Virus record (IMG/VR): IMGVR_UViG_3300032018_000010
Span: 1-39,055 of that record
Reading direction: 5' to 3' (one strand)
DNA: 39,055 nucleotides
Source of the DNA: a virus
Part shown: positions 15,152 through 38,148 of the stretch, in pieces
How the letters are laid out: every line of letters starts with the position of its first letter
How positions within the stretch are numbered: position 1 is the first letter of the stretch
The notes under the pieces: generated by a model
What the model was told of the DNA's origin: nothing
Database searches by the model: none
The model's input: only the letters and a program-made list of their open reading frames with translations
Made by a program: the position numbers and the translations under genes

Positions 15152-15153
15152 GT

Positions 15154-15652: not shown

Positions 15653-15656
15653 TGTT

Positions 15657-16529: not shown

Positions 16530-16565
16530 CCAAAAACCTCCAAAAAATTATTACCACGCAAGATT

Positions 16566-16594: not shown

Positions 16595-16629
16595 CACAAA
16601 AAGTTTTTCAACAGGGTGCAAATAAAATA

Positions 16630-16657
16630 TTGACAAAGGTTGTTTTTGTGATAAGGT
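16630..16657 (+). promoter_or_regulatory. Rightward sigma70-type promoter
   Basis: TTGACA at 16630-16635 is followed after 16 bases by TAAGGT (16652-16657), preceded by TGA. It lies 45 bases before the first pentapeptide gene's start and is back-to-back with the leftward promoter, forming the early divergent switch. Confidence 0.65.
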
Positions 16658-16701
16658 GAATAAAAAGCAAGATGATTTTTAACACAAACATGGAGGGAAA
16701 A

Positions 16702-17238: not shown

Positions 17239-17606
17239 TGAGCAAATTCAACGCCGATCACTGGCTACGCACAAGAAAGGAAATGCTCATGCAAATAGGA
17301 TGGGTCGAGCCGGAAAGCCTTTATTTTTTCTGGAATATCAAGGACGAATACAAGGCCATGCTTGCCGCCATGAGCCGTGAATGCCAGCTACAGGAAATAG
17401 CCGCGACATTCAAATGCCATGTTGGCACGATCCAGCGCGACAAGTACATGCTTGGCCTGTCGAAAAAGACACCTGGCGGCAGCAACCGAAAAAAGAGAAT
17501 GTTCGGCTACAAGGGCCAACTCCTACCCTGCGCCGAGATAGCGGCACTGGAGGGGGTTGGCTATAATACAGCCTATTCATGGCTTACAAAAGGGAGGTTA
17601 AGTTGA
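17235..17606 (+). CDS. Helix-turn-helix protein
   Basis: The product has 123 residues; the start overlaps the previous stop codon (a second ATG follows at 17238). The N-terminal third is aromatic-rich (SLYFFWNIKDEYKAML). A first helix-turn-helix candidate is CQLQEIAATFKCHVGTIQRD and a second is PCAEIAALEGVGYNTAYSWL. The twin-HTH layout suggests a DNA-binding regulator or replication accessory. No family assigned. Confidence 0.55.
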   Translation: MMSKFNADHWLRTRKEMLMQIGWVEPESLYFFWNIKDEYKAMLAAMSRECQLQEIAATFKCHVGTIQRDKYMLGLSKKTPGGSNRKKRMFGYKGQLLPCAEIAALEGVGYNTAYSWLTKGRLS

Positions 17607-17608
17607 TA

Positions 17609-17794
17609 ATGAAAATATTGGTGTTTGTGGTTTTTTTGCTAATCTGGGGTGCGGGTTGTTTTGTTGTTGATAAATTTATAAACTATACAAGCGGTTCGTT
17701 CGCAGCCAGTACTCCATTTATTATGATGTACGGATGGATGGCTGGTAATCTTGCTAGCTTCATATCTGATTTGATAAATTTGATAAAAAGGTAA
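17609..17794 (+). CDS. Small membrane protein, two hydrophobic spans
   Basis: ATG 17609 follows a GGGAGG site. The 61-residue product has an N-terminal hydrophobic span (MKILVFVVFLLIWGAGCFVV) and a second (FIMMYGWMAGNLASFI). It may act on the host envelope, a common place for small early phage proteins. Not recognised. Confidence 0.5.
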   Translation: MKILVFVVFLLIWGAGCFVVDKFINYTSGSFAASTPFIMMYGWMAGNLASFISDLINLIKR

Positions 17795-17798
17795 AAAA

Positions 17799-17924
17799 AT
17801 GAAATGCGTAAAAACAGGAGAGCCAACGATGAATGGGGTACTGTGCCGGAAATGCAAGGAGCAGTGCGAACATGCCGGGCGGATCAAGATGCTTGATGAG
17901 ATGCTGAGGGAGGAACTACAATGA
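17799..17924 (+). CDS. Very small Cys-rich (zinc-finger-like) protein
   Basis: A 41-residue frame (MKCVKTGEPTMNGVLCRKCK; EQCEHAGRIKMLDEMLREEL) holds a C-x12-C-x2-C-x3-C pattern that could bind zinc. Its stop overlaps the next start (ATGA). Small zinc-binding proteins of this size are frequent in phage early regions. Confidence 0.45.
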   Translation: MKCVKTGEPTMNGVLCRKCKEQCEHAGRIKMLDEMLREELQ

Positions 17925-18157
17925 CCGCACCTCGCACAACAACACAGGCATGGAGAGCGCATGTGCAGATATGCCCGATAACATCCGGGCTGGAAACAAG
18001 GATGCTTGAATCAACCTATCTGCGACTGTGCAAAGATCGCCAGAAAGCGGCGCGAACCAAAGAGGAAATGGACAGCGGCGACCCGTATTCGGTTTGGTGC
18101 CGTGAGTGCAAGGGGAATATTGTACCGGCAGAGCTTACTTTTATCGAGATTGACTAA
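17921..18157 (+). CDS. Small hypothetical protein
   Basis: The product has 78 residues, ATGA-overlapping its upstream neighbour. It is charged and helical in the middle (ETRMLESTYLRLCKDRQKAA) with a C-terminal C-x-x-C pair (WCRECKGNIVPAE). Possibly a small nucleic-acid-binding protein. No family recognised. Confidence 0.5.
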   Translation: MTAPRTTTQAWRAHVQICPITSGLETRMLESTYLRLCKDRQKAARTKEEMDSGDPYSVWCRECKGNIVPAELTFIEID

Positions 18158-18167
18158 GGAGGAAAAA

Positions 18168-18353
18168 ATGCCACAATACATTATTTATATCGACTGTGGT
18201 TATGAGGATGAATACGAGGAAGTATCCGCAGAAAACGAAGAGGAGGCAAACAAAATCGCCTATAAACGGTGGAGAGAAGAGGCCGAAGTCCAGGCAGGTT
18301 ATGGGGTTATTGGAGAAGCGACCGACGATCTTCGAGAGGAGTTTTTGTCATGA
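18168..18353 (+). CDS. Small acidic protein
   Basis: ATG 18168 follows AAGGAGGAAA, a strong ribosome site. The 61-residue product (QYIIYIDCGYEDEYEEVSAE, then helical EEEANKIAYKRWREEAE) is very acidic and resembles small phage beta-alpha folds with DNA-mimic-like charge. That function is not demonstrated. Confidence 0.5.
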   Translation: MPQYIIYIDCGYEDEYEEVSAENEEEANKIAYKRWREEAEVQAGYGVIGEATDDLREEFLS

Positions 18354-18391
18354 ATTTATTCAAATACCGATATTAATAAAGGGAGATACCC

Positions 18392-18892
18392 ATGCAATTC
18401 GAGATTAAAAACAGATGGACAGGGGATGTACAATTCACGGCAGAAATAAATGCGACCAACGATATGTTGCCGGGGGTTAAAATTGCTTTGTCGGTTAAGT
18501 GGGGGTTGAACTACGGTGCCGATCTGCGCGGTGCCGACCTGAGCGGTGCCAATCTGCGCGGTGCCAATCTGCGCGGTGCCGATCTGAGCGGTGCCGACCT
18601 GAGCGGTGCCAATCTGCGCGGTGCCAATCTGCGCGGTGCCAATCTGAGCGGTGCCGACCTGAGCGGTGCCAATCTGCGCGGTGCCGATCTGCAAATTTTC
18701 CAAGCAGGAAGATATACGGCGTGGGTGCAAAAAACACATACCAGAATAGGATGCCAGTATCACAGCAACAAGGAGTGGAGAGCATTTGACGATGAAAAAA
18801 TATCTTCCATGGCTGATGATGCCGTGGAGTGGTGGTCTGAAAATAAGAAGATTATTTTTATGATGATATCCGCAATGGGTAAGAAAAAATGA
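18392..18892 (+). CDS. Pentapeptide-repeat protein (second paralogue)
   Basis: The product has 166 residues with GGGAG before ATG. Residues 1-40 ([20 protein letters not shown]) match the N-terminal module of the 16702 protein at most positions. About 12 pentapeptides A(D/N)L(R/S)G follow, encoded by a GGTGCC(A/G)A(T/C)CTG(C/A)GCGG-type 15-bp unit, and then a C-terminal ~60-residue globular tail ([21 protein letters not shown]-containing) that the first copy lacks. The two genes differ in repeat consensus, so they diverged and expanded separately. Confidence 0.8.
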
Positions 18893-24477: not shown

Positions 24478-24587
24478 CAACCAGATGACAACCAGATGTC
24501 CGCACGCTGCCTGCCGCTTTGACGCACCAGAGAAGAGGAGAGCAGATAAAGGACTTAACAGCAGCGCTAGCCGGAAAGAGATTTATA

Positions 24588-26144
24588 ATGAGACCGCCTA
24601 AAAAATACCAGCAACTATCCATCGATCATATCAAGCTTCCATCCGGCCAGGGTTTTATACTGCGCGATTATCAACACAAGCTTGTTGATGGGGTTCGAGA
24701 TTCGATTGTGTCAGGTAATAGGCGTGTAGTGATGGTGCTGGCCACGGGCGGCGGAAAGACGGCGGCTTTTGCGGAGATAGCAAAACTCGCAGTTGAGAAG
24801 GGCAAGAAGGTTCTTTTTTTGGTGAACCGGCGCAATCTTGTACAGCAGACCAGGGAGGCGTTTGCTTTCCATGGTGTGACCGGAACCGGGGTTATAATGG
24901 CAGGGCACGAAACAGCGCTCCATGAGCCATTACAGCTCGCCACAATACAAACCTATGGGCGGAGGATCAAACTGGAAGAGGGGGAAACGGTTTTTAATTT
25001 TCCCGCCGACTTAATTCTTGTCGATGAAGCGCATTTCAGCGTCAGCCCACAATTTCAGGATGTTCTGGCCCACTACCCGAAAGCAGTGATTGTTGGATGC
25101 ACGGCAACGCCAATGCGGGGCGATGGTAGAGGTTTGGGGGAAGTGTTTGACGCATTGGTTGACGTTATCGACACGCAAGATTTAACAGACAAAGGGTTTC
25201 TCGCCCCGTGCCGATACTTTGCTCCTTCAAAGCCCGACCTTGATAAAATTAAGATCGTGCGCGGCGACTATGAGCAAAAAGAGCTTGAAAAGAGGATGAA
25301 CCAGGCAAAGCTGGTAGGAGATGTTGTAGAAAACTGGATGCGCCTGGCTGGGGATAGAAAGACAATCGTGTTTGGGGTATCTGTTGCCCACGCAAAAGCC
25401 CTTGCTGTGGAGTTTAACCGGAAAGGAATCGCGGCGTACGCTTTGTCTGCTGCCAGCACAGAAGAAAAGAGAGAATATGCCTTCCGTGAAATGGAGCGCG
25501 GTAATATTCAGGTAATTACAAACTGTGCCTTGTACCAGTACGGAATGGATGTACCTGATATTTTGTGCGTGGTACTTGCAAGGCCAACCAAAAGCCTTGG
25601 GTTGTATCGACAGATGGCTGGGCGTGGCTTGAGGCCGTCACCAGGGAAAGAAATGCTACTGCTTGACCATGGCGGGTGCATTGAGGAAAACGGGTTGCTG
25701 ACTGATCCTATTGAGTGGAGCCTGGATGGAAAAAAGAAGGCATGGAAAAAGAAAAAGAAAGATGACAAGCCTCGTGAGAAGCGTGATAATATTTGTTCTT
25801 CATGCTCCTTATTGTTCACCGGCTCGAATGTTTGCCCTGATTGCGGAAGTGAGGCAAAGAGTTTTGGGAAAAAGGTGGATGTGGTTGATGGAGACCTTGA
25901 AGAGATAAAACCCAAGAAGGTCAGTAAGGATGATCGGCGGAGGTTTTACGGTATGTGCTTGTTCTACCAGAGGCAGAAAGGATATTCAGACGGGTGGTGC
26001 AGCCATAAGTATAAATCGCGGGTTGGGGTATGGCCTCGCGGGATGAACGATGTTCAGCCAATACAGCCGGACCAAGAATTTATGAACCGCATCCGCCATG
26101 AGCAGATAAAATACGCCAAGGCCCAGGAGAAAAGGAATGGCTGA
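24588..26144 (+). CDS. Superfamily 2 DEAH-box helicase with zinc-binding tail
   Basis: ATG 24588 is preferred (GGAAAGAG upstream); a TTG at 24519 is open in frame but would extend over a probable remnant. The 518 residues carry the motifs in order: ATGGGKT (Walker A), LVDEAHF (motif II), CTATPMRG (motif III), QMAGRGLRP (motif VI), then a Lys-rich stretch and a zinc-type quartet (C-S-S-C ... C-P-D-C). It unwinds DNA or remodels protein-DNA complexes at the phage origin. It overlaps the Toprim primase by eight bases, matching the DEAH helicase plus Toprim pair of other phages. Confidence 0.85.
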   Translation: MRPPKKYQQLSIDHIKLPSGQGFILRDYQHKLVDGVRDSIVSGNRRVVMVLATGGGKTAAFAEIAKLAVEKGKKVLFLVNRRNLVQQTREAFAFHGVTGTGVIMAGHETALHEPLQLATIQTYGRRIKLEEGETVFNFPADLILVDEAHFSVSPQFQDVLAHYPKAVIVGCTATPMRGDGRGLGEVFDALVDVIDTQDLTDKGFLAPCRYFAPSKPDLDKIKIVRGDYEQKELEKRMNQAKLVGDVVENWMRLAGDRKTIVFGVSVAHAKALAVEFNRKGIAAYALSAASTEEKREYAFREMERGNIQVITNCALYQYGMDVPDILCVVLARPTKSLGLYRQMAGRGLRPSPGKEMLLLDHGGCIEENGLLTDPIEWSLDGKKKAWKKKKKDDKPREKRDNICSSCSLLFTGSNVCPDCGSEAKSFGKKVDVVDGDLEEIKPKKVSKDDRRRFYGMCLFYQRQKGYSDGWCSHKYKSRVGVWPRGMNDVQPIQPDQEFMNRIRHEQIKYAKAQEKRNG

Positions 26145-27081
26145 TCGTATTGATTACGAAACCGTGAAGTCTAACGCTTGTGGCCGCTGGATCGGAATAT
26201 ATTCTTCTCTCGGAATAGAAGTTGGTGAAGAAGGGAGATATACCACGTGTCCACTTTGCGGAAAAAAAGACAAGTTCAGGATGGACGATAAGGGGCGCGG
26301 CCTGTGGGTGTGTGTTTGTGGCGCTGGTGACGGCTGGAAGTTGGTACAGGAAGTGCAGAATATTGGCTTTGTCGCCGCGATGGAGCTTGTGGCCCCAATT
26401 ATCGGGTCGGTAGAAATCAAAGAGTTAAGGGAGAAAAAAAGCAACTTCACCAAGGAAAAAGCCAGAAAGGTATTTGAGGGGGCGTTCAAGGCTGACCGAG
26501 CCAACCCTGTCGGGCTGTACCTCAAAAACAGGGGGATTGATCTCTGCCCGAATACCTTATGGTATCACCCGGCCATGATGGACGAAAAACAGAAACTTCC
26601 CGCTATGGTGGCATGTGTTACAACGAAGGCCGGGGAAGTGTCTGCGATGCACCGAACCTTTTTGACGCTTGATGGAAAAAAGGCTAATGTTGATCCGGTA
26701 AAAAAGTTGTCTCCGAATATTGTTGGGGTTAAGAACATAAAGGGAGCGGCAATACGGTTGTTCCCCCCGGCGCACAAAGTATTAGGGGTAGCAGAGGGGA
26801 TAGAAACCGCCCTTGCCTGTTATGGCTTCCACGGAATACCAACATGGGCCACGGTGTCAGCGGTTGGCATGATAGGGTGGGAGCCACCGGAAGGCATCCC
26901 GATTAAGAAGGTGTTTATTTTTGGCGACAACGACAAGAGCTTCACCGGGCAATCTGCGGCGTATCAGTTGGCGAAAAAGTTGACGGTGTTGAGAAAGATG
27001 GAAGTCGAGGTGCTTATACCGGATGGGGTTGGCACTGATTGGCTGGACGAACTGAACGCAAGAAAACAAGATTTGGCGTAG
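26137..27081 (+). CDS. Zinc-ribbon/Toprim primase
   Basis: The 314 residues show an N-terminal zinc ribbon (TTCPLCGKKDKFRMD; GLWVCVCGAGDGW) as in the P4-alpha/DUF7146 primases, a linker with a FRVYLKNRGI-like LKNRGIDLCP stretch, and a C-terminal Toprim-type domain with LGVAEGIETALAC (catalytic Glu) and FIFGDNDKSFTGQSAA (the DxD motif). It makes RNA primers for lagging-strand synthesis, presumably with the helicase it overlaps. No polymerase is seen, so the phage probably relies on the host replisome. Confidence 0.8.
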   Translation: MADRIDYETVKSNACGRWIGIYSSLGIEVGEEGRYTTCPLCGKKDKFRMDDKGRGLWVCVCGAGDGWKLVQEVQNIGFVAAMELVAPIIGSVEIKELREKKSNFTKEKARKVFEGAFKADRANPVGLYLKNRGIDLCPNTLWYHPAMMDEKQKLPAMVACVTTKAGEVSAMHRTFLTLDGKKANVDPVKKLSPNIVGVKNIKGAAIRLFPPAHKVLGVAEGIETALACYGFHGIPTWATVSAVGMIGWEPPEGIPIKKVFIFGDNDKSFTGQSAAYQLAKKLTVLRKMEVEVLIPDGVGTDWLDELNARKQDLA

Positions 27082-27275: not shown

Positions 27276-27610
27276 ACAGAAAGATGAAAATACCAAACAA
27301 CTTTCACCTTTTAGGGCAAAAAATAACCGTTGTTGTCAATCCTGCCTGCTTCACAGAAAAAGACGGGGTTTATGGCTATGCGTCATACCGGACGAACCAG
27401 ATACAACTTAGGCCGTCAACGGAAACGCATCCTCTTAACCAGGATCAGCTTGAGCAGACGTTTTACCATGAGTTGATGCACTTTATTTTATACCATGCTG
27501 GCTCGGCATATTCTGGTAAGTGCGATTATATGCACCAAGACGAAGGGTTTGTAGATTTGTGCGGATCGTTGCTGCATCAAGCAATGTCCTCTATGGAGCA
27601 TGTAGAATGA
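27272..27610 (+). CDS. HExxH metallopeptidase-like protein
   Basis: The 112 residues overlap the previous stop (ATGA). The motif F-Y-H-E-L-M-H-F-I-L-Y-H holds the HExxH signature of zinc metallopeptidases, and an E/D/H-rich end (YMHQDEGFVDLCGSLLHQAM) could supply a third ligand. ImmA/IrrE and SprT-type small metalloproteins share this look. Some phage members cleave repressors, and since no repressor is visible here that link is only a possibility. It ends at the phage side of the cassette array. Confidence 0.6.
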   Translation: MNRKMKIPNNFHLLGQKITVVVNPACFTEKDGVYGYASYRTNQIQLRPSTETHPLNQDQLEQTFYHELMHFILYHAGSAYSGKCDYMHQDEGFVDLCGSLLHQAMSSMEHVE

Positions 27611-27696
27611 AAACACCACAAGACGTAGGAAAATATCGCCTCGGAATAATCCGCCGATTGCTGGCCGGAGATTTAACCCCGGAACAGGCGGCTTAA
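27607..27696 (+). CDS. Very small protein ending inside the first attC-like site
   Basis: A 29-residue frame (MKTPQDVGKYRLGIIRRLLA then GDLTPEQAA) begins inside the previous stop codon and its TAA lies in the R'' box of the first attC-like site. It could be a truncated phage protein or a small cassette gene; cassette genes typically end at this spot. Basic and helical, no family. Confidence 0.4.
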   Translation: MKTPQDVGKYRLGIIRRLLAGDLTPEQAA

Positions 27697-27781
27697 CGAT
27701 TGAAGCCAGCCGACCGCGCCCCGGCTGGCGCAGGAAACAACGCGGCGCTTCACGCGGTCGATCTGAGCTGATTGGTTATAT
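27691..27781 (+). repeat. attC-like site 1
   Basis: R'' GCTTAAC (27691-27697, a perfect RYYYAAC) and R' GTTATAT (27775-27781) flank an imperfect palindrome. Outer arms share TAAC/GTTA; inner arms share CGACCGCG (27710-27717 region) with CGCGGTCG (27753-27760). Two further inner stems (GCCAGCCG/CGGCTGGC) extend the structure. R' departs from GTTRRRY at its end. Length is 91 bp, within the normal attC range. Confidence 0.55.
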
Positions 27782-27810
27782 TTTATTTTGTTGTGGGTGC
27801 AAAATAATAC

Positions 27811-27844
27811 TTGTGGTTGCATTAAAACGGGTGTACATTATATT
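27811..27844 (+). promoter_or_regulatory. Cassette-internal promoter
   Basis: Two overlapping promoter readings: TTGTGG (27811-27816) with TACATT (27834-27839) at 17 bases, and TTGCAT (27817-27822) with TATATT (27839-27844) at 16 bases. A short GGGC/GCCC hairpin and AAAAGGAG follow before the ATG at 27889. Cassettes are usually promoterless, so a private promoter suggests self-regulated genes. Confidence 0.5.
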
Positions 27845-27888
27845 TAAACGAGGGGCAATAAAGCCCACCACCCAAAAGGAGAACGACC

Positions 27889-28164
27889 ATGAAAACCACC
27901 TACACGATTCCCCAGAAGATGAGCAACAGCGGCAGCATCCACGACATCGCCTCTGATAATTTTGACCGTGACATCGTGTTTGCCGCCGGTTGCAAGTACG
28001 CGGTTGTTTTGGCCAGCTACTACGGCGGCAAGGGCTACACCACCCACAAGACCGCCGGGGCTGCGATTAAGGCCAGCAACGCCCAGAAAGACTACAGCCG
28101 TGAGATCATCGACACTGACGGCAACCGCTACCTGGTTGACTACGACCGGCTGGTCAAGGCATGA
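27889..28164 (+). CDS. Cassette A gene 1, small hypothetical protein
   Basis: The product has 91 residues with a strong AAAAGGAG ribosome site. Sequence is polar with Gly/Tyr-rich centre (VLASYYGGKGYTTHKTAGAA) and a strand-rich end (IIDTDGNRYLVDYDRLVK). It overlaps the next gene (ATGA), giving a two-gene cassette with its own promoter. That layout recalls toxin-antitoxin cassettes, but no toxin family is recognised. Confidence 0.55.
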   Translation: MKTTYTIPQKMSNSGSIHDIASDNFDRDIVFAAGCKYAVVLASYYGGKGYTTHKTAGAAIKASNAQKDYSREIIDTDGNRYLVDYDRLVKA

Positions 28165-28352
28165 CAGACGACACCAAGCGGAGCCGGGGAAAACCCCCCG
28201 GCTCCCGAAAAATTGACGCCCGCCGGGTGGCCGTAAAGATCCGGTGGACTGAGGCCGAGGTTGAGACGGTAAAAGCGGCGGCAGAACTGGCCGGGGAAGA
28301 TTTTTCGGCTTTTGTTCGAGCCGCTGCCCTAGCCAGGTGCCGTAAAATATAA
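28161..28352 (+). CDS. Cassette A gene 2, ribbon-helix-helix-like protein
   Basis: The product has 63 residues, basic, with VAVKIRWTEAEVETVKAAAE followed by AGEDFSAFVRAAALARCRK: a strand followed by two helices, as in ribbon-helix-helix DNA-binding proteins, including MobC-type and antitoxin members. It could regulate its own promoter at 27811 and the upstream partner. Its TAA (28350-28352) falls in the R'' box of attC-like site 2. Confidence 0.6.
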   Translation: MTDDTKRSRGKPPGSRKIDARRVAVKIRWTEAEVETVKAAAELAGEDFSAFVRAAALARCRKI

Positions 28353-28436
28353 CGACCAGGGTGAGCAGACCGGGCCAACCAAACTACAATAAAAAACACC
28401 GAGCTTCCCCCCGGTCAGCCATGACCGGCGTTGATA
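28347..28436 (+). repeat. attC-like site 2
   Basis: R'' ATATAAC (28347-28353) and R' GTTGATA (28430-28436) flank arms GACCGGG (28368-28374) and CCCGGTC (28410-28416). Total length is 90 bp, exactly that of site 5, with which it shares long stretches (GGTGAGC, GACCGGGCC, AAAAAAC, CCGAGCTTCCCCC). Box matches to consensus are partial, so this is the weaker copy of that pair. Confidence 0.6.
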
Positions 28437-28666
28437 TGGTTGAATTGCCCAAAGGCGACTACTTGACGGTGATCAGCCGGGGCAAAGAGTTCCACGCCAC
28501 AAAAGTTGCACGGGCCGTTGTCGCTGGCCAGATTAAAATTGAAGACATTAAGGGGCTTGAAAATGAACGAGAAAACAGCAGGGACCAAAAAAGAGATTGC
28601 CGCCAAGATTGCAATTTGGCAAACTATGGCCGGGACTGCAACAACAACGAGATTGACAATGACTGA
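28436..28666 (+). CDS. Cassette B gene 1, small hypothetical protein
   Basis: ATG 28436 follows directly on R' of site 2; no clear ribosome site precedes it. The 76-residue product opens with a compact beta-like part (LPKGDYLTVISRGKEFHATK; ARAVVAGQIKIEDIKG) and then a long charged, Asn/Asp/Arg-rich tail (ENERENSRDQKRDCRQDCNL) which overlaps the next gene and may not be functional. It ends in frame beyond the next start. Confidence 0.4.
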   Translation: MVELPKGDYLTVISRGKEFHATKVARAVVAGQIKIEDIKGLENERENSRDQKRDCRQDCNLANYGRDCNNNEIDND

Positions 28667-28841
28667 GTACGTCAAGCAGTTACGGGTTAAAGGTTGGACG
28701 GCTCAGGAGTTGGCGAAGCGATGGGGGGTTAGCCCCCGTCGCATCTCTCAAATCGGGGCCGCACCCACCCAAAAAGATTGGGATGCCCTGGCCGGTCTGC
28801 CGGAGATGGCCAAGGCATCACCCTGGCCGGTCTGCCGGTGA
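28563..28841 (+). CDS. Cassette B gene 2, helix-turn-helix protein
   Basis: ATG 28563 has AAGGGG seven bases upstream; a shorter start is ATG 28660. The HTH is clear: VKGWTAQELAKRWGVSPRRI then SQIGAAPTQKDWDAL. The C-terminal residues LPEMAKASPWPVCR are encoded inside the first copy of a 35-bp tandem repeat, so the natural stop may have been changed when the cassette end was duplicated. Likely a small transcription regulator. Confidence 0.6.
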   Translation: MNEKTAGTKKEIAAKIAIWQTMAGTATTTRLTMTEYVKQLRVKGWTAQELAKRWGVSPRRISQIGAAPTQKDWDALAGLPEMAKASPWPVCR

Positions 28842-28855
28842 TGGCCAAGGAATCT
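28786..28855 (+). repeat. 35-bp tandem repeat at the end of cassette B
   Basis: Two copies in tandem (28786-28820 and 28821-28855) both read CCCTGGCCGGTCTGCCGG then (A/T)GATGGCCAAGG(C/A)ATC(A/T). A third copy lies at 29397-29431, just before attC-like site 4. All three end at or near an R'' box, as if cassette ends had been duplicated by slippage or site-specific recombination. Confidence 0.8.
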
Positions 28856-28908
28856 AACGCCGGAAATAACCGGCGGCTTTAGCCGTCCAGTTGATTGATT
28901 TGTTAAGC
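28852..28908 (+). repeat. attC-like site 3
   Basis: R'' ATCTAAC (28852-28858) and R' GTTAAGC (28902-28908) both match consensus. The arms AATAACCGGCGGC (28865-28877) and the 28882-28896 arm pair with two extra bases on the 3' arm, T28886 nearer the loop and G28893 nearer the base. This is the arrangement of known class 1 integron attC sites such as that of aadA1. Length is 57 bp, near the classic 59-base element. Confidence 0.8.
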
Positions 28909-28923
28909 TATAGGAGGTGTGCC

Positions 28924-29340
28924 ATGGGGCTTTCGTGTTCTTGCCCAGAGTTTGATGGTGACGGATTTTATTACACGATAAAGTCCAAATTGCTGTGCGC
29001 AACGCCTATTTACAGGGACGGCAAAGCGATATGGGATCAGGAGTTTTTCTTTCCACTGACCACCAAGAGAACCCGGCGGTGCAAGTCGTGTAACACAAAA
29101 GTAAAAGTCGGTGATGATTGCATAGAATTTGAGAGGCATATCAGCACCGAAGGCGATGAGATAAAAGAACGAATCTACGGCGATGAAATGAGGTTGGCAT
29201 CATGGTTCCACTGCGCAAAATGCGGAGAGCAATACTTGAACCTTGAAGAGCTTGGTTACTGTGTCGATATTACTGAGAATATGCACGACCTTTTGATGGA
29301 GTACCGGGAGTTGCACGACACTTCGGAGGTGGCGGCATAA
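28924..29340 (+). CDS. Cassette C gene, zinc-binding protein
   Basis: ATG 28924 follows TAGGAGGTG. The 138 residues include an N-terminal Cys pair (LSCSCPEFDG), then CKSCNTKVKVGDDCIEF, and CAKCGEQYLNLEELGYCVD, six or more Cys in C-x-x-C form. The rest is acidic and strand-rich. It resembles small zinc-ribbon proteins of phages. The TAA at 29338-29340 sits in a partial R''-like GCATAAC, with no matching R'. Confidence 0.6.
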   Translation: MGLSCSCPEFDGDGFYYTIKSKLLCATPIYRDGKAIWDQEFFFPLTTKRTRRCKSCNTKVKVGDDCIEFERHISTEGDEIKERIYGDEMRLASWFHCAKCGEQYLNLEELGYCVDITENMHDLLMEYRELHDTSEVAA

Positions 29341-29431
29341 CGCTTGAGCTGAGACGCGGGAACCCTAAACAGGAGAGAGTAGATGCCGATTTCATGCCCT
29401 GGCCGGTCTGCCGGAGATGGCCAAGGCATCA
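29336..29431 (+). repeat. Half attC-like remnant followed by a duplicated cassette end
   Basis: GCATAACGCTTGAGCTGAG (29336-29354) has the look of an attC 5' half (R'' then spacer then GAG), but no 3' half follows. From 29397 the sequence is a copy of the repeat at 28786 and leads straight into attC-like site 4. A short frame here (MPISCPGRSAGDG...) is unlikely to be a gene. The stretch reads as a scar of cassette deletion or fusion. Confidence 0.55.
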
Positions 29432-29486
29432 TAACGCTGGAAATAACGGGCGGCTTTAGCCGTCCGAGTTGATTGTTTGGTTGGGC
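29429..29486 (+). repeat. attC-like site 4
   Basis: R'' TCATAAC (29429-29435, one departure from RYYYAAC) and R' GTTGGGC (29480-29486, perfect). Arms AATAACGGGCGGC and 29459-29474 pair with the same extra bases T29463 and G29471 as site 3, of which it is a near-copy (58 bp). Confidence 0.78.
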
Positions 29487-29511
29487 GACGTGCCCTGATG
29501 AGGAGAATAGA

Positions 29512-30018
29512 ATGCAGATAGAGAATAAACGTGTTTTGGACCCATGTTGCGGCGGGCGCATGATGTGGCTGGACCGGAAACACCCTGACGTTGTTTTTGG
29601 AGACAGGCGCAGCGAAACCATTACCGTAACTGACCGCTCACACGGCAACGCCAGCGGCACCAGAACGCTGCGGATTGAGCCAGACACGCTGATTGACTTC
29701 CGTGATCTGCCGTACCCGGACGGGTTTTTCAAACTGGTAGCATTTGACCCGCCGCATGTGTTACGGGCTGGTCCGCGTTCGTGGCTGGCTGCAAAATACG
29801 GGAAACTCTCCGATACCTGGCAGGAAGACCTGAACCTCGGCTTCGCCGAGTGCTTCCGTGTGCTGGATAACGATGGCGTGTTGGTTTTCAAATGGAACGA
29901 AACACAGATTAAAGTCGGCGAGGTGCTGGCACTTACACCCGTACAACCGCTGTTTGGGCATATTTCGGGCAGAAAGGGGTTGACGCACTGGTTGGTTTTC
30001 ATGAAGCCCAACGACTAG
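29512..30018 (+). CDS. Cassette D gene, class I methyltransferase-like protein
   Basis: ATG 29512 follows GAGGAGAATAG. The 168 residues carry VLDPCCGGRMMWLDRKHPDV (SAM-binding loop region), a FDPPHV motif (DPPH, equivalent to the D-P-P-Y/W catalytic motif of amino-methylases), and a fold-like end (GVLVFKWNETQIKVGEVLAL; HISGRKGLTHWLVFMKPND). It resembles phage-type SAM methyltransferases; the substrate is not evident. It might modify phage or host nucleic acid. Confidence 0.65.
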   Translation: MQIENKRVLDPCCGGRMMWLDRKHPDVVFGDRRSETITVTDRSHGNASGTRTLRIEPDTLIDFRDLPYPDGFFKLVAFDPPHVLRAGPRSWLAAKYGKLSDTWQEDLNLGFAECFRVLDNDGVLVFKWNETQIKVGEVLALTPVQPLFGHISGRKGLTHWLVFMKPND

Positions 30019-30095
30019 GGTGAGCCGACCGGGCCGCCCAAACGTGAACAAAAAACGCCGAGCTTCCCCCGGTCGGCTCTACCCGCTTGTTAAGC
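30006..30095 (+). repeat. attC-like site 5
   Basis: R'' GCCCAAC (30006-30012) and R' GTTAAGC (30089-30095) both match consensus. L arms GAGCCGACCGGG (30022-30033) and CCCGGTCGGCTC (30068-30079) pair perfectly over 12 bp. The spacers between R and L are symmetric, nine bases each side. The 34-base loop region contains AAAAAAC and GCCGAGCTTCCCC. Length is 90 bp. The cassette D stop (TAG) lies at 30016-30018 in the spacer. Confidence 0.85.
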
Positions 30096-30114
30096 AAGCG
30101 AACCACGGAGCTAA

Positions 30115-30753
30115 ATGAAACCACGGATTCTTGACCTATTTTGCGGGGCCGGTGGCGCTGGCATGGGCTACCACTTGGCCGGGTTTGAGGTGGTGGGGGT
30201 TGATATAAATCCGCAACCGCGATACCCGTTTGAGTTCCACCAGGGCGACGCACTGGTATACCTGCGGGAACACGGACACGAATTTGATGCGATACACTCC
30301 AGCCCGCCCTGCCAGGCCCATAGCTCACTGACTGCGCTGACCAGCACAAAGACCCATTGTGACATGATACCGGCCACGAGGTGGGAGCTTACCCGCACAG
30401 GCAAAGCGTGGGTAATAGAGAATGTCCCAGGCGCACCGCTGGTTTCTCCGGTGCAGGTATGCGGTACGGCGTTTGGGCTGAAGGTGGCGCGGCACAGGAT
30501 GTTTGAAAGCAATGTGGCGCTCACCGGCACCGGGGCTTGCTCGCACAAGGGGAAAGAGCTTTACACGGTGCTGACGAAATCATGCCGAGTAATAGGTGAC
30601 ATGCGCGGGCCGTCCAGCCACCAGACCGGAAAAGCGGCGATGGGCGTGGACTGGATGACTCAAATGGAACTGGGGGAGGCCATACCACCGGCCTATACTG
30701 AATTTTTAGGATTGCAGCTTCGGGCGGCACTGATGCTTTCCCGAGCTGCATAA
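30115..30753 (+). CDS. Cassette E gene, C5-cytosine DNA methyltransferase-like protein
   Basis: The 212 residues carry the conserved motifs of the C5-cytosine methylases in order: motif I DLFCGAGGAGMGYHLAGF, motif II-III VVGVDINPQP, motif IV SSPPCQAHS (catalytic Cys) and motif VI WVIENVPGA. The protein is short and has a reduced target-recognition part (LTKSCRVIGDMRGPS, KAAMGVDWMTQMELGEAIPP). It may methylate cytosines to mask phage DNA from host restriction. The TAA (30751-30753) falls in the R'' box of site 6. Confidence 0.75.
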   Translation: MKPRILDLFCGAGGAGMGYHLAGFEVVGVDINPQPRYPFEFHQGDALVYLREHGHEFDAIHSSPPCQAHSSLTALTSTKTHCDMIPATRWELTRTGKAWVIENVPGAPLVSPVQVCGTAFGLKVARHRMFESNVALTGTGACSHKGKELYTVLTKSCRVIGDMRGPSSHQTGKAAMGVDWMTQMELGEAIPPAYTEFLGLQLRAALMLSRAA

Positions 30754-30806
30754 CGTGTAGTTGAGCGGCTGCGCTTTATGCAGTCCGCTCGAACGTAGGG
30801 TTCGAC
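30748..30806 (+). repeat. attC-like site 6
   Basis: R'' GCATAAC (30748-30754) and R' GTTCGAC (30800-30806) each depart from consensus at one position. Arms GTTGAGCGGCTGC (30760-30772) and 30780-30794 pair with extra bases T30784 and G30791 in the 3' arm, the class 1 integron pattern. Spacers are symmetric, five bases each. Length is exactly 59 bp. Confidence 0.82.
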
Positions 30807-30828
30807 CATACTTTAATCGGAGAGAGAT

Positions 30829-31047
30829 ATGAAAGTTTATCAAGTGGTATATGAGCATGACGGTGAAATAACTGCTGAACCAGGCAAGCAGTCAATCGAA
30901 ATAAACCGCGTGACAGTGCGATACGCGGCAGAACACATTGCCGAAGTGTGGGAAGCAATCGAATGGTTACGCAATGACGAAGAACAAACAATTATTGCCA
31001 TAATCGAAGAGGCCCCTGCTATAATCATGTTGGGGTCGAACCATTGA
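30829..31047 (+). CDS. Small protein after the last attC-like site
   Basis: The product has 72 residues with GGAGAGAG upstream. Acidic and mainly beta/helix (VYQVVYEHDGEITAEPGKQS; HIAEVWEAIEWLRNDEEQTI). It is either the first phage gene to the right of the array or an unterminated cassette. Function unknown. Confidence 0.5.
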   Translation: MKVYQVVYEHDGEITAEPGKQSIEINRVTVRYAAEHIAEVWEAIEWLRNDEEQTIIAIIEEAPAIIMLGSNH

Positions 31048-31110: not shown

Positions 31111-31473
31111 ATGAAAATAATCCTACCATGGCCGCCGAAAGAATTAAGCCCGAACGCCCGTGTCCATTGGTCAAAGCGAGCGAAATTTGCGAAACTGTAC
31201 CGGCAAACGTGCATGGTTATCACCAGGGCAACCGGGGAAAAGGCTGATTGGGATGGAGATATTCATTTGTTTATTGACATGTATCCTCCCGACCGGCGGC
31301 GCAGGGATTGGGATAACTGTGTCTCGTCACTCAAGGCAGCCATGGATGGGGTCGCTGATGCCCTGGGCGTAAACGATAGACGTTTTAGGGTTCATCCAGT
31401 TTTAAGCCAAGAAGTTAGGCCAGGGGGGCAAGTGGTGGTGAAGATTTGCAGTTATCATGGAGGAGAGAAATGA
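31111..31473 (+). CDS. rusA: RusA-family Holliday junction resolvase
   Basis: The product has 120 residues with a strong GGGGGGGAAGGG site ahead. Motifs of the family: PPKELSPNARVHWSKRAKFA, RRRRDWDNCVSSLKAAMDGV (the D-x-D-N catalytic Asp motif) and ADALGVNDRRFRVHPVL. RusA dimers cut four-way junctions and resolve concatemers before packaging. It overlaps the next gene's start. It flanks the cassette array on the right. Confidence 0.85.
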   Translation: MKIILPWPPKELSPNARVHWSKRAKFAKLYRQTCMVITRATGEKADWDGDIHLFIDMYPPDRRRRDWDNCVSSLKAAMDGVADALGVNDRRFRVHPVLSQEVRPGGQVVVKICSYHGGEK

Positions 31474-32915: not shown

Positions 32916-33016
32916 AATGTAGTAATTTAACAGAAAGATTAATCCAGCTATATCAACAAAAAATGGCATACTCTCACAGGGTAGACAAAATAAAAGCGGT
33001 TAGGCATTGGAACTGA
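32912..33016 (+). CDS. Small coupling frame between the terminase genes
   Basis: GTG 32912 overlaps the small terminase stop (GTGA). The 34-residue frame (MKCSNLTERLIQLYQQKMAY; SHRVDKIKAVRHWN) ends nine bases past the large terminase's TTG start. This layout is that of a coupling peptide; the alternative is that it is merely leader sequence. Low support for an independent function. Confidence 0.35.
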   Translation: MKCSNLTERLIQLYQQKMAYSHRVDKIKAVRHWN

Positions 33017-34323
33017 CAGCCAAACAAAAACAAGCGGTCCAGCTTATGGGCGGAAGCGAAACCCACGACTTACTATTTGGTGGAAGCCGGAGCGGGAAAA
33101 CGTTTCTTATCACGCGGACGCTGGTACTTCGCGCACTGGCCGCCTCTGGTTCTCGACACGCAGTTCTTCGCTATCGATTCAACCACGTTAAAAGCGCAGT
33201 TGTCCTTGACACCTTCCCCAAGGTGATGACTCTGTGCTTCCCCGGCGTAACCGCGCACGTTGACAAAACCGACTGGTACGCAGAGTTCCCCAACAAGAGC
33301 CAGATATGGTTCGGCGGGCTTGACGACAAGGAGCGCACCGAGAAGATTCTGGGGCAAGAATATGCCTCAATCTTCCTGAACGAGTGCAGCCAGATTCCGT
33401 ACAGCTCCCGCAATTTGGCTATCACCCGCCTTGCACAACGTGCAGAGCGCGACGATGGCAAAGGCCCGTTGCGGCTGAAGATGTACTATGATTGCAACCC
33501 ACCTTCCCAAGCGCATTGGACATACCAGTTATTTGTGAAGGGCAGAGACCCGCAAGACAAGCAGCCTATAGCGGCCAGCAACTACGCAAGCACGGTGATG
33601 AACCCCACGGATAACATCGACAACCTCCCTGCCGAATACCTAGCGACCCTTGAATCACTCCCAGCAAGACTCCGCACTCGCTTTCTTGAGGGGCGTTTCC
33701 TTGATGACACCGTAGGCGCATTGTGGACCATTGAAGGTATTGAGACCTGGCGCAAGGTGAACAAGCTACCCGATATGCAGCGTATCGTTGTTGCGGTTGA
33801 CCCTTCTGGATCAGAAAATAAGGACAACGCAGATAATGACGCTATCGGCATCATCGTGGCCGGTCTTGGCGTTGATGGTAACGGGTATGTGCTTGAGGAC
33901 TTGACCTGTAAGGCTGGACCGGCAGTGTGGGGCAAGATCGTCACGACTGCTTACGAGCGGCACAGCGCAGATAAGGTGGTCGGTGAAAAGAACTACGGCG
34001 GGGCAATGGTCGAGCATGTGATCCAGACAGCAAGACGCAATACCCCGTACAAAGGGGTTACGGCCACTAGGGGTAAGGTTATCCGGGCCGAGCCTATTGG
34101 TGCATTGGCAGAGAAAGGCAGGATCAGGCACGGCGGTTACTTCCCCGATCTTGAGGATGAGCTGTGCGCCATGACCACCAAGGGGTATATGGGCGAATCC
34201 TCACCTAACCGTGCGGACGCTTACGTTTGGGCGTTCACCGAGTTGTTTGGTGAGATTGTCAACGGTAAAAATAACTCATTTTTCGATCAATCATTGAACG
34301 TCAACAGGGGGTACATAGTCTAA
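33007..34323 (+). CDS. terL: Terminase large subunit
   Basis: TTG 33007 is the only start preceded by TTAGG in this frame. The 438 residues contain FGGSRSGKTFL (Walker A), IFLNECSQIP (Walker B with catalytic Glu), YDCNPPS and a C-terminal RNase-H-like nuclease with VVAVDPSGSENKDN (first metal Asp), GIIVAGLGVD, KVVGEKNYGGAMVE and a last Asp (NRADAYVWAF). This is the ATPase-nuclease motor that fills the head. The short start overlap with the 32912 frame keeps subunits co-translated. Confidence 0.85.
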   Translation: MELTAKQKQAVQLMGGSETHDLLFGGSRSGKTFLITRTLVLRALAASGSRHAVLRYRFNHVKSAVVLDTFPKVMTLCFPGVTAHVDKTDWYAEFPNKSQIWFGGLDDKERTEKILGQEYASIFLNECSQIPYSSRNLAITRLAQRAERDDGKGPLRLKMYYDCNPPSQAHWTYQLFVKGRDPQDKQPIAASNYASTVMNPTDNIDNLPAEYLATLESLPARLRTRFLEGRFLDDTVGALWTIEGIETWRKVNKLPDMQRIVVAVDPSGSENKDNADNDAIGIIVAGLGVDGNGYVLEDLTCKAGPAVWGKIVTTAYERHSADKVVGEKNYGGAMVEHVIQTARRNTPYKGVTATRGKVIRAEPIGALAEKGRIRHGGYFPDLEDELCAMTTKGYMGESSPNRADAYVWAFTELFGEIVNGKNNSFFDQSLNVNRGYIV

Positions 34324-34601
34324 TGCCACGTCCAAAGAAGAAAGTAGAGGTTGTTGAGCCTGTTGTGTCGGGTTTTGATGCAGGGTTGGAAGATCAGACC
34401 GTTGTGTTTGTCGATGAGTCTAAAAACATAGAGCAGGCACACATGAACGACCTTGCCGCCCGTATCTTCGATGGCCAAAGCCCAGACTTGCCCCTAAACG
34501 AGCGGGTGCGCCGGATCAAGAACGCGGTAATCGAAAGGGGTTGGGAGTCTTTGCTGCCCCTGCTTATTATCCCAGCCAAGGGCTTTGAGAGATACCTGTG
34601 A
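34323..34601 (+). CDS. Small protein between terminase and portal
   Basis: The product has 92 residues, ATG sharing the preceding stop. Basic N-terminus (PRPKKKVEVVEPVVSG), acidic middle (FVDESKNIEQAHMNDLAARI) and a helical end (RRIKNAVIERGWESLLPLLI). It overlaps the portal start. No family; small packaging accessory proteins are common here. Confidence 0.5.
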   Translation: MPRPKKKVEVVEPVVSGFDAGLEDQTVVFVDESKNIEQAHMNDLAARIFDGQSPDLPLNERVRRIKNAVIERGWESLLPLLIIPAKGFERYL

Positions 34602-36799
34602 GAGAGCAAGAGCTTGTCGCAATAATCAAGACTCAACGGGCCAATTCTTTAGGGGTTGACGCTGGCGATCTATCGGCGCAACGGGCGACCGCGCTTGACC
34701 ATTACCACGGGAGACCATACGGAAATGAGCAGGATGGGCGGTCTCAGGTTGTCAGTAAGGACTTGTCAGAGGCTGTCGATTGGGCTATGCCTGCCATTAT
34801 GCGGGTATTTACTGCTAGTGACAACATTGCAGAGTTTATTCCGGTTGGCCCAGAGGATGAGGCGCTAGCAGAGCAGGAGAGCGATTACACCAACAAAGTG
34901 ATTATGCAGGACAACGACGGATGGTTGTTGCTGCATGACGCTTGTAAGGACGCGCTCATACTCAAGAACGGCTATGTCAAGTACTGGTGGGACACCTCAG
35001 AGAAGATCGAGGAAGAAGAATACTCCGGAATCACCCTGGAAGAGTTGGTCAAGATTTCCTCCGACCTTGAGGCCAACGGGTCTGATATTAAGATCGTGGC
35101 CCAGGAAGAAAAGGTCATTGACATGGGTGGTGTGCCTGTGTCGCTGTTCGATATAAAGATCAAGGTAACTACTAAGACCGGAAAATGTATCATTCAGGCG
35201 GTGCCATCGGAAGAGGTCAGGGTATCAAAGCGGTGTCGGGGGTCACTACAGGATTCTCCATTTACTGAACACGTTACCGTAAAGACCCGCTCAGACCTAA
35301 TCGAGATGGGGATGCCGAAAGACTTTGTTTCTAAGCTGGCCTCTCTTGCCGGGGAGCGGAACGACGAACAGGTACACGCCCGTGACTCGGTTGACGATGA
35401 GAGCGGCGACTATGGCGCGTCCTCTGGTGATAAGTCACAAGATGAAATAGAGTTTTGTGAGGCGTATATCAAGGTCGATTGGGACGGCGACGGGATTGCA
35501 GAGCTTCGCAAAGTGGTGACTGTCTCTGACAAAATCCCCCCCGGAGAAGAGTGGAACGAGGTCATTCCAGCCGTGCCGCTTACCTCTTTCATGCCTAAAC
35601 GAATCCCTCATCGGCATGTAGGGGAGTCTTTGGATGATGATCTAGCCGACCTGCAAGAGATCAAGACGATTCTTTCCCGGCAAATGCTGGATAACATTTA
35701 CTTGACAAATAACAATCAATGGATTGTCAACGAACGGGTAAACCTAAAGGACTTCTTGCAGTCCTTCCCCGGCGGCGTGAAGCGTGTTTCTGGTCAAGAG
35801 CCTGTGTCTGGAAGCGTTGAGCCGGTAATGGCCGTGCCGATTGTAGGGCAGATACTTCCGGTTATTGACTATATCGACAATCTCAAGGAGTCCCGCACCG
35901 GAATAAGCAAGGCCACATCAGGGCTTGATCCTGATTCCCTGCGTGACAGCACAAAGGGCGCGTTCCTTGAGAACTTGAACAGGGCCAGCCAGAAAATAGA
36001 GATGATAGCGCGGATGCTGGCCGAGACAGGGGTGAAAGAGCTTGTCCGACAGGTGCATGGTGTTTTGCTTCGGTATCAGGACAAGGATCGCATTATCAAA
36101 CTGCGTGGCCAATATGTTTCCGTTAACCCCAGAGAATGGAAAGAGCGCAACGATCTGGTGGTAAAGGTTGGGATCGGCACCGGAAACGAGCAGGAGAAAC
36201 GGGAAAAGTTGATGCTGATGGTTCAGGCGCAGGAGAAGCTCGCCGGGCTTGGCTTGGTAGGTCCTCAACATGGGTATGCCTTGTTCACAGATATTGCCAA
36301 AAACCTCGGCTTTGAGCTGCCCGAAAAGTACGCATTCGACCCATCTTCTCCGGAGTTCCAGCAATTTCAGCAGAGCCAGGGACAGCCGAGCAACCCGCTA
36401 GCTGAGGCCGAGCAGGTCAAGGGCCAGTACGTCATCCAGAAAGCGCAGATTGACCAAGAAGCGAAGATAAAGAGTGACGTTCTTAACGCCGAGGCCAAGA
36501 ATCGAGAGGCGGCTATTGACGCAGAATTGCGCAGAGACGAAATGACCATCCAGGCAAATTTGGAAATGGAGAAAACCATTGCCACTTTATCCCTTGAGCG
36601 TGAGATAGGTCTTGCGAAGATGAACTTGGAAGCTTATTTGGCCTCTGTTCAGCAGCCGGGTGTAGAAGTGCCGGAAGGTCCGGGGATTTCGGATATCATA
36701 AACCAGTTGGGCGCACAGACGCAGGCTATTATAGACACACTGAGCCGCCCGAAAACCGTAGTTTATGGCCCTAACGGTCGAGATAGTGGCGTGGCATAG
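34598..36799 (+). CDS. Portal protein
   Basis: The 733 residues match the large portal proteins of podoviruses (P22/SU10 type): LDHYHGRPYGNEQDGRSQVV, SEAVDWAMPAIMRVF, KNGYVKYWWDTSEKIEEEE, FCEAYIKVDWDGDGIAELRK, HVGESLDDDLADLQEIKTIL and SGLDPDSLRDSTKGAFLEN. The C-terminal ~150 residues are a long Gln/Glu/Ala-rich helix (IQANLEMEKTIATLSLEREI), as in the barrel that extends into the head. It forms the dodecameric vertex through which DNA enters and leaves. Confidence 0.85.
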   Translation: MREQELVAIIKTQRANSLGVDAGDLSAQRATALDHYHGRPYGNEQDGRSQVVSKDLSEAVDWAMPAIMRVFTASDNIAEFIPVGPEDEALAEQESDYTNKVIMQDNDGWLLLHDACKDALILKNGYVKYWWDTSEKIEEEEYSGITLEELVKISSDLEANGSDIKIVAQEEKVIDMGGVPVSLFDIKIKVTTKTGKCIIQAVPSEEVRVSKRCRGSLQDSPFTEHVTVKTRSDLIEMGMPKDFVSKLASLAGERNDEQVHARDSVDDESGDYGASSGDKSQDEIEFCEAYIKVDWDGDGIAELRKVVTVSDKIPPGEEWNEVIPAVPLTSFMPKRIPHRHVGESLDDDLADLQEIKTILSRQMLDNIYLTNNNQWIVNERVNLKDFLQSFPGGVKRVSGQEPVSGSVEPVMAVPIVGQILPVIDYIDNLKESRTGISKATSGLDPDSLRDSTKGAFLENLNRASQKIEMIARMLAETGVKELVRQVHGVLLRYQDKDRIIKLRGQYVSVNPREWKERNDLVVKVGIGTGNEQEKREKLMLMVQAQEKLAGLGLVGPQHGYALFTDIAKNLGFELPEKYAFDPSSPEFQQFQQSQGQPSNPLAEAEQVKGQYVIQKAQIDQEAKIKSDVLNAEAKNREAAIDAELRRDEMTIQANLEMEKTIATLSLEREIGLAKMNLEAYLASVQQPGVEVPEGPGISDIINQLGAQTQAIIDTLSRPKTVVYGPNGRDSGVA

Positions 36800-36806
36800 G
36801 GGTAAT

Positions 36807-37085
36807 ATGTATAAATCAGAGATTTTCAAGGCTACGGATGCGAAGGCGTTGCTCGACAACCCTATTTTCAAAGATGCCTTTGTGAAGGTTGGCGAATATC
36901 TGGAAGCGCAAGCCTTGTCTTGCGACCCCAACGACCAGGGCAAGGCGCAGCGGGTTATTGTAGCCAAGCAGATTCTCGCCGGGATCAAGCGTGAGATTAC
37001 AAAAATGGTTGATGATGGCGATATTGCACAGATAAGGATGGATGAGGTCGAGCAGCGCAGAGGTTTAAAGCGGTTTATCAGATAA
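36807..37085 (+). CDS. Small hypothetical protein in the head module
   Basis: I chose ATG 36807 over the longer frame because GGGG lies just ahead and the earlier start is inside the portal. The 92 residues are helical (FVKVGEYLEAQALSCDPNDQ; QRVIVAKQILAGIKREITKM). It sits between portal and scaffold, where phages often place a small head protein. No family. Confidence 0.55.
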   Translation: MYKSEIFKATDAKALLDNPIFKDAFVKVGEYLEAQALSCDPNDQGKAQRVIVAKQILAGIKREITKMVDDGDIAQIRMDEVEQRRGLKRFIR

Positions 37086-37101
37086 CAAAAGGAGCAGCAC
37101 A

Positions 37102-38148
37102 ATGTCAGAGGAAAACGGGAACCCTACCGGAAACGGCGCAAGTACCATCGAGCGGTTGGAAAACTACCTTACAGCACAGGAAGCACCAGCCAAAGAAGAA
37201 CCCGCAGCGGAGCAAGCCCCTGTTGTGGAAGATCAGGACGTAAAAGCCGAGGTTGAACCCGAAGCAAAAGATGATGGCGCAGGGGTAGAAGGGCCGCAGA
37301 TCACCACCGACGATCTTTCCGCGCTTCTTGGTGTCGAGGCTAGCATGTTCGACGCTGACGAAGAGGGAAACGTAGTAATCAAGACTAAAATCGACGGGAA
37401 GGAAGGATCAGCCAAGCTCAATGACATTCTGGCCGCCTACCAATTGCGGGGGCATGTAGACAACCAGAGCCGGGAAGTTGCAGAGAAGAAGAAAGCACTT
37501 GACGCGCAGGCCGTAGAGTTGCAGCAGCGGGCCGAGGCGAAACTGCAAGAGGTTGAAGACATTGGCACCCTTGCCCACCAAGAGTTAATGCGCGAGTTTC
37601 AGGCAATCAACTGGCAGGAATTGAGGCAGTACGAACCCGCAGAGTATGCGGCAAAGCTGGCCGATTTTCAGATACGCCAGGGCAACCTGAATGCCTCAAT
37701 GCAAAAGGTGCAGGCAGAGCGGCAGAAGATCGCAGAGCAGAATCAGGCACAGGAGCAAACCCTTATGGCGTCGGAAGCGGCCAAGATGCGGTCGCATATT
37801 CCTGGCTGGTCAGATGAAGCGGTTGCTGCGAAAGAGTGGGCAGAACTAGAGGCCCATGTACAGAAAGACCTTGCAGCGTGGGGTGAACAGCCGGAAAGCC
37901 TGAATGTAATCAAAAAGGCGTTTCATATTAATCTGCTACGCAAGGCGATGTTGTATGACAAGATGATGGACAGCAAGGCCGGGGTCGAGAAGAAGGTAAG
38001 AATCGCGCCGAAACTCGTTAAGCCAGGACAGGCACCATCAGCGCAGGATGGAAAGAACAGGGAATTTAACAATCTACGATCAACCATAAAAAAATCAGGC
38101 GGTAAGCAGGGTATCAGAGAATACCTGATTGCCGCCGGTAAAGTTTAG
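37102..38148 (+). CDS. Scaffold protein
   Basis: The product has 348 residues with AAAAGGAG upstream. Low hydrophobicity, many Glu, Gln, Ala and Lys, N-terminal acidic low-complexity part (PAAEQAPVVEDQDVKAEVEP), a central helical region (REVAEKKKALDAQAVELQQR) and a positively charged C-terminus (KKSGGKQGIREYLIAAGKV) that in scaffolds binds the coat. Position directly before the capsid gene is the main support. It would guide prohead assembly and leave before DNA packaging. Confidence 0.7.
   Translation: MSEENGNPTGNGASTIERLENYLTAQEAPAKEEPAAEQAPVVEDQDVKAEVEPEAKDDGAGVEGPQITTDDLSALLGVEASMFDADEEGNVVIKTKIDGKEGSAKLNDILAAYQLRGHVDNQSREVAEKKKALDAQAVELQQRAEAKLQEVEDIGTLAHQELMREFQAINWQELRQYEPAEYAAKLADFQIRQGNLNASMQKVQAERQKIAEQNQAQEQTLMASEAAKMRSHIPGWSDEAVAAKEWAELEAHVQKDLAAWGEQPESLNVIKKAFHINLLRKAMLYDKMMDSKAGVEKKVRIAPKLVKPGQAPSAQDGKNREFNNLRSTIKKSGGKQGIREYLIAAGKV

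Follow-up and report, generated by a model that had tools for sequence, protein, structure and literature searches.

Introduction

Integron attC sites have been described in phages before. Seventeen attC clusters were reported in about 10,700 phages, with methyltransferases among the cargo, and IntI1 recombined five of the six phage attCs tested (Qi et al. 2023; PMC9892861). Here, an attC cassette array is described at positions 27691-31041 of IMG/VR virus record IMGVR_UViG_3300032018_000010. The entire record, a linear sequence of 39,055 bases, was analyzed and is referred to as the window. Like the phage clusters of Qi et al. 2023, the array lies in a phage record without integrase and carries methyltransferases. 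Unlike their model case, phage TJE1 (3/3 co-oriented with attC), its cassette genes are inverted relative to attC. That paper (PMC9892861) describes no inverted cassettes, no unit of attC followed by gene, no attI, and no layout with intI before the terminase gene. Judged from sequence, the array is read as belonging to a phage integron that has lost intI (probability roughly 0.8).

Three other systems are close. The window shares its attC sequence types and the pairing rule for cassette ends with the sedentary chromosomal integrons of Desulfobacterota (G020:C7 and L108). In these integrons IntI and attC stand in the standard geometry, as they do in intI-bearing phages. The genes of Desulfobacterota cassettes are co-oriented with attC, whereas those of the window are inverted and form part of the phage gene run. 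With class 1 mobile integrons the window has attC structure in common, since a model of class 1 sites detects the window sites, and other such phages encode an IntI of family TIGR02249. It differs from them in lacking co-oriented cassettes driven by a Pc promoter and in its cargo of methyltransferases and small phage-type genes instead of drug resistance.

In the spirochaete-type 'reverse' integrons intI lies in reverse orientation (PMC9668308). They resemble the phage integrons described below in that intI and cassettes are transcribed in the same direction. The two kinds probably differ in what is flipped: intI itself in spirochaete-type integrons and, in the phage elements, where intI and attC have standard geometry (57/57), the genes relative to attC.

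Identification of the attC sites

No Rfam family matched the window, at gathering cut-offs or at E ≤ 1, and attC covariance models were therefore purpose-built. Model R1 was made from eight attCs of class 1 resistance integrons on plasmids and contained no window sites. Model R2 was trained on 30 phage and Desulfobacterota sites without clinical ones. A first mixed MAFFT alignment (A1), in which Desulfobacterota sites were misaligned, was dropped.

Searching both strands of the 39 kb with R1 at E up to 10 gave exactly five matches, all on the minus strand (sites 1, 3, 4, 5, and 6 below; E 1.5e-3 to 1.2e-9), and no match outside these sites. The remaining site 2 is degenerate; it had no R1 match and was found by R2 (E = 0.03), a model whose training set partly consisted of the window's own sites. 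The R''/L''/L'/R' architecture and strand asymmetry of attC are present in the window sites under both models, and on these model matches the six sites are taken to be genuine attCs. With six sites in 3.1 kb and no intI in the record, the array conforms to the definition of a CALIN (cluster of attC sites lacking integrase; at least two attCs, no integrase nearby). The attC fold is absent from the minimum-energy structures of sites 3 and 4, and folding energy was not used as evidence. No R1 match was obtained in the first 50 kb of phage H101.

An earlier note on this DNA, made from the sequence alone, had proposed six attC sites and a covariance-model search as the check. The search recovered all six at the positions proposed, on the strand opposite to the one assumed. 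The features are as follows; pairing values are explained under the cassette ends, and a slash within a motif marks the recombination cut.

27691-27781, minus strand: attC site 1, of cassette a; R1 E = 1.5e-3, R2 60.2 bits; sense boxes GCTTAAC and GTTATAT
27697-28352, plus strand: cassette a; attC 1 followed by two genes, 27889-28164 and 28161-28352; final stop TAA flush with the cut AA/C
28347-28439, minus strand: attC site 2, degenerate, right half deleted; pairing 0/4
28353-28857, plus strand: cassette b, rearranged; gene 28421-28666, followed by a frame with a 38-nt repeat
28852-28908, minus strand: attC site 3, the best match; R1 45.5 bits, E = 1.2e-9; sense boxes ATCTAAC and GTTAAGC
28858-29340, plus strand: cassette c; attC 3 followed by the cysteine-rich protein gene 28924-29340; end GCATAA/C
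about 29335-29375, minus strand: attC half-site remnant after cassette c; box GCATAAC; 29339-29375 matches the attC region of another locus (L093)
29429-29486, minus strand: attC site 4; R1 E = 8e-5; sense right box GTTGGGC
29436-30011, plus strand: cassette d; attC 4 followed by gene 29512-30018 for a DNA methyltransferase
30006-30095, minus strand: attC site 5; R1 E = 1e-5
30012-30753, plus strand: cassette e; attC 5 followed by the C5-cytosine DNA methylase-like gene 30115-30753, whose stop TAA abuts the cut
30748-30806, minus strand: attC site 6; R1 E = 2.2e-6; sense boxes GCATAAC and GTTCGAC
30754-31040, plus strand: cassette f; attC 6, then gene 30829-31047 (72 aa)
31035-31041, minus strand: attI-like boundary box GTCGAAC, the exact complement of the site 6 box GTTCGAC

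The array had been delimited at 27691-30806. Its sites stand, the half-site at about 29335-29375 is added, and the array probably extends to the boundary box at 31035-31041, whose position corresponds to that of attI in intI-bearing phages. Three copies of a 38-nt G+C-rich unit, ATGCCCTGGCCGGTCTGCCGGAGATGGCCAAGGCATCA, lie at 28783-28855 and 29394-29431, two of them in tandem; the unit is a copied cassette tail.

Strand of the sites and of the genes

The plus-strand orientation of the sites was rejected, as R1 placed every match on the minus strand. Under unfiltered R1 scoring the plus strand was far lower (site 5, 19.1 versus 30.5 bits; site 6, 8.1 versus 33.1 bits); no plus-strand score was listed for the remaining sites. 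R2 recovered the clinical sites on their known strand, so that the direction call is sound. The R'' and R' boxes had thus been interchanged in the earlier note. Its extra T and extra G, read on the plus strand, are present, now as bottom-strand extrahelical bases that are consistent with minus-strand attCs.

With the attCs on the minus strand and the genes on the plus strand, the coding strand doubles as the recombinogenic bottom strand of attC, and every attC goes with the gene that follows it. The previous assignment of each site to the gene upstream was therefore wrong. All window genes are anti-oriented to attC, and the usual cassette layout, with attC at the 3' end of its gene, is absent. 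That usual orientation is not strictly defining, because reversed cassettes also occur in a bacterial integron (L111, below).

Pairing of cassette ends and exchange between phages

In a true array the bases past the cut belong to the next cassette. The two end boxes of one cassette should consequently be complementary, and the two boxes of one site need not be. Among 37 viral cassettes, 27 were exact at all four variable bases (mean 3.51/4). The means were 1.69 within one site and 1.72 between randomly paired boxes, and 3.51 was not attained in any of 20,000 permutations. For bacterial cassettes (n = 19) the mean was 3.79. This test ignores the direction given by the model, and loci L165-L207 were left out of it.

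In the window, cassettes a and d pair exactly (GTTATAT of site 1 with ATATAAC at 28347, the other end of cassette a; GTTGGGC with GCCCAAC for d). Cassette e pairs at 3/4. Cassette c also has one mismatch (GTTAAGC with the half-site box GCATAAC, 3/4), and cassette f is exact with the box at 31035. The recombination point is frequently flush with the stop codon: the stop TAA is often the TAA of the box, and an open frame of 50 codons or more terminates at 78 of the 152 boxes of this kind.

Comparison with relatives, which the earlier note had also proposed, showed single cassettes present or absent with breakpoints at the R' cut (G/TT). One relative is a 9.8-kb virus contig (L090) with blocks about 98% identical to the window. 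It holds the cassette a block (98% identical) in a different order, and between this block and the following attC it carries an additional unit of 264 bp, composed of an attC and then a gene. At both joins of this unit, AATATAA/CGA and CAGATAA/CGACCAGG, the breakpoint coincides exactly with the predicted cut. Relative to cassette a, the cysteine-rich cassette is on the upstream side in L090 and on the downstream side in the window; the L090 copy of its gene ends in GCTTAAC, giving 4/4. An intact version of site 2 is present at L090 8580-8670 (R2 51.7 bits), and by alignment the 225 bp that follow it are absent from the window. Gain or loss with breakpoints at G/TT was likewise seen for a second cassette, 90-95% identical, common to three loci with unrelated flanks (L180, L198, and L206). 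It starts at its attC and ends GCATAA/C.

Orientation in other viruses and in bacteria

Virus contigs, which are metagenomic and often partial, were gathered with the RusA and primase of the window and with three attC motifs read on both strands. Genes were called with a simple codon-bias script; a length-based caller was noisy for short phage genes. Among 47 non-redundant virus contigs, genes were mostly anti-oriented to attC in 38, co-oriented in six, and tied in three. Desulfobacterota loci found by R2 and analyzed with the same caller gave 37 co-oriented and none anti-oriented in 28 genomes (locus L108, 5:0), so the caller shows no anti bias on bacterial loci. Class 1 arrays were co-oriented in 10/10. 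The difference between viruses and bacteria was significant by contig (Fisher p = 2e-14). On these contigs, the inversion is general in the viruses sampled.

Two co-oriented loci, L201 and L202, belong to one record with a gene content resembling a multi-resistance array. L111 (G019:C248, 3245-6338) is a bacterial integron of mixed orientation in which the ends of the inverted cassettes touch attC; these are possibly captured phage cassettes.

One phage record (L119 in G002) carries arrays on both strands, at 1476-9278 and 14366-18685, each inverted relative to its own genes. In a Deltaproteobacteria metagenome-assembled genome (L095, MGTA01000008.1), an inovirus-like prophage has a single attC at 1528-1584, inverted relative to the prophage genes, and adjoins an apparent transfer-messenger RNA gene. 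If this prophage packages its coding strand, the packaged single-stranded DNA would be the attC bottom strand.

Phage integrons with an integrase gene

The earlier note saw no integrase, and none was found in the 39,055-base record; related kinds of phage do have one. IntI is encoded in G003 (L085) and G342, and a remnant is present in G010 (L129). In G342 (45 kb) the replication genes are followed by inverted cassettes, then intI, then terminase, which shares 4 nt with intI, and then portal. Phage IntI matched TIGR02249 at 329-413 bits (cut-off 265) and is about 48-50% identical to IntI1 and to Desulfobacterota IntIs. The two full phage integrases were sisters in a small tree.

A virus protein search with an alignment of these two integrases, blind to attC, gave 29 loci, 14 of them with attCs. 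All 57 attCs at the 14 loci lie on the strand opposite intI, the standard integron geometry, and the cassette genes have the same direction as intI (ambiguous in L253). From the pairing rule, attI is predicted as an exact 7-mer between the last attC and intI, which was present in 13 of the 14. In intI-bearing virus contigs intI often precedes terminase. The phage had been proposed as a carrier and shuffler of cassettes. Phages of this kind do more than carry passively, as others have intI and attI between the array and terminase.

We consider it rather probable that tailed phages have an integron class of their own, with intI and attI immediately before terminase or a different phage gene, the standard intI/attC geometry, genes inverted relative to attC, cassettes and intI in one gene run, and the bottom strand as coding strand. 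In such a class the viral and bacterial cassette pools would be kept apart by the inversion, and many phages, the present one among them, would retain just the array and borrow an integrase. If so, a cassette crossing between the pools would be read antisense by the promoter of its new host.

Interpretation and alternatives

In the proposed mechanism, the moving unit is an attC in reverse, a ribosome-binding site, a gene, and TAA, with the sense cut AA/C equal to G/TT on the minus strand. The array has no Pc promoter. It lies inside a rightward phage gene run, from the replication genes to terminase, and phage transcription can read all cassettes. Hairpins could form on the coding strand, which is the attC bottom strand, once it becomes single-stranded during phage replication, and an integron integrase could bind them to excise and insert cassettes. 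The source of this enzyme, acting in trans, could be the host chromosome or an intI-bearing phage infecting the same cell. Desulfobacterota carry attCs and IntI matching the attC types of the window. The loss of intI in this lineage, like strand exposure, is a presumed step.

In published work, folding and recombination of attC bottom strands were greater when these lay on the lagging-strand template, whereas in chromosomal integrons they are kept on the leading template (PMC8946536, PMC11023631). With a fork moving in the direction of transcription, inverted cassettes would place the bottom strand on the lagging template while their genes stay in the phage run. That this holds here depends on the assumed direction of replication.

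Several points weigh against the reading as a phage integron that lost intI. No intI remnant was found in the window, and loss, as opposed to an integrase never having been present, is our interpretation. The box at 31035-31041 would pair with site 6 by chance in about 3% of cases, and no intI lies alongside it. The junctions at sites 2-3 and 3-4 fail the pairing rule, showing an array that is partly scarred; deletions and the half-site 29335-29375 are visible at these junctions. A few viral arrays are co-oriented (TJE1 and L169, the latter with phage-type genes).

An array that was formerly mobile and is now frozen, with decaying sites and no integrase acting in this phage, is the best of the alternatives, yet unlikely. 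The degenerate site 2, the half-site, and the duplicated 38-nt tails fit decay, as does the lack of intI in the record. Against this, L090 differs by one clean cassette and by cassette order between blocks of about 98% identity, which points to recent movement, and sites 3-6 still have good attC scores.

Less probable still is passive acquisition of part of a chromosomal integron from the host, which would make the array an ordinary CALIN like those of Qi et al. 2023. Desulfobacterota integrons do contain the same attC sequence types, and the record is without intI. However, their genes are co-oriented with attC (37:0; L108, 5:0), whereas those of the window are all inverted, as in 38 of 47 virus contigs, and phages share and differ by single cassettes.

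An artefactual inversion, produced by the models or by gene calling, is very improbable, even though attC is close to a palindrome, genes were called with a simple script, and R2 was trained partly on viral sites. R1, built from clinical sites only, yields the same strand, R2 strands the clinical sites correctly, and the same caller gives 37:0 in bacteria. The insertion breakpoints and the shared cassette independently place the cut at the sense-left box, and for cassette genes including the methyltransferases homology fixes the coding strand. Intergenic hairpins (terminators or RNA signals) merely resembling attC, to which the terminator-like position between gene ends and starts might point, are the least credible explanation, as the clinical model selects these sites and no others from 39 kb, end boxes of one cassette pair over hundreds of bases, and insertions break exactly at the integrase cut.

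The presence of attC in phages is already known. In the literature searched, which comprised open papers, no description was found of the inverted form embedded in a phage operon: the inversion, the attC-then-gene unit, attI, or the position of intI next to terminase. With a phage integron that lost intI as the preferred reading, scattered reports of phage attCs become a rule-based system in terms of location, direction, moving unit, and matching integrases. It offers a possible route for swapping anti-restriction genes among phages as discrete cassettes, and a natural test of how recombination is governed by attC strand and by the direction of replication. The system is also relevant to the question of cassette origins. 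A reading blind to orientation, such as that of the earlier note, would misassign this viral cassette reservoir.

Phage context and cargo

The phage context and the methyltransferase cargo recognized earlier were borne out by PHROGs and Pfam matches. The phage genes around the array, assigned with PHROGs, are:

24519-26144, plus strand: phage helicase, 5' of the array
26137-27081, plus strand: phage primase, 5' of the array
31111-31473, plus strand: RusA-like phage resolvase, 3' of the array
33007-34323, plus strand: terminase large subunit
34598-38148: portal and scaffold

Virion proteins are also encoded in the window (PHROGs). All called genes are on the plus strand, and guanine-cytosine skew is mostly positive on the coding strand. 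No transfer RNA genes were found in the 39,055 bases, and the record may be an incomplete phage genome. A small phage gene at 27607-27696 is shortened to 29 aa, compared with a longer frame in L081, exactly at the start of the array; it is the likely entry point of the array.

The gene at 29512-30018 matches phrog_954 (DNA methyltransferase, E = 1.7e-66). The gene at 30115-30753 matches PF00145 above cut-off and phrog_363 (E = 5e-44). From these protein families, the two methyltransferases would shield phage DNA from host restriction and may thus act in anti-restriction. A search for the C5 methylase in Desulfobacterota gave only two relatives. Other phages have homologues of cassette genes among their attCs: of the C5 methylase in L271, of the methyltransferase encoded at 29512 in L094, and of the protein encoded at 28161 in G342. 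A PAPS (3'-phosphoadenosine-5'-phosphosulfate)-reductase-like cassette is present in both L085 and L086, in different surroundings.

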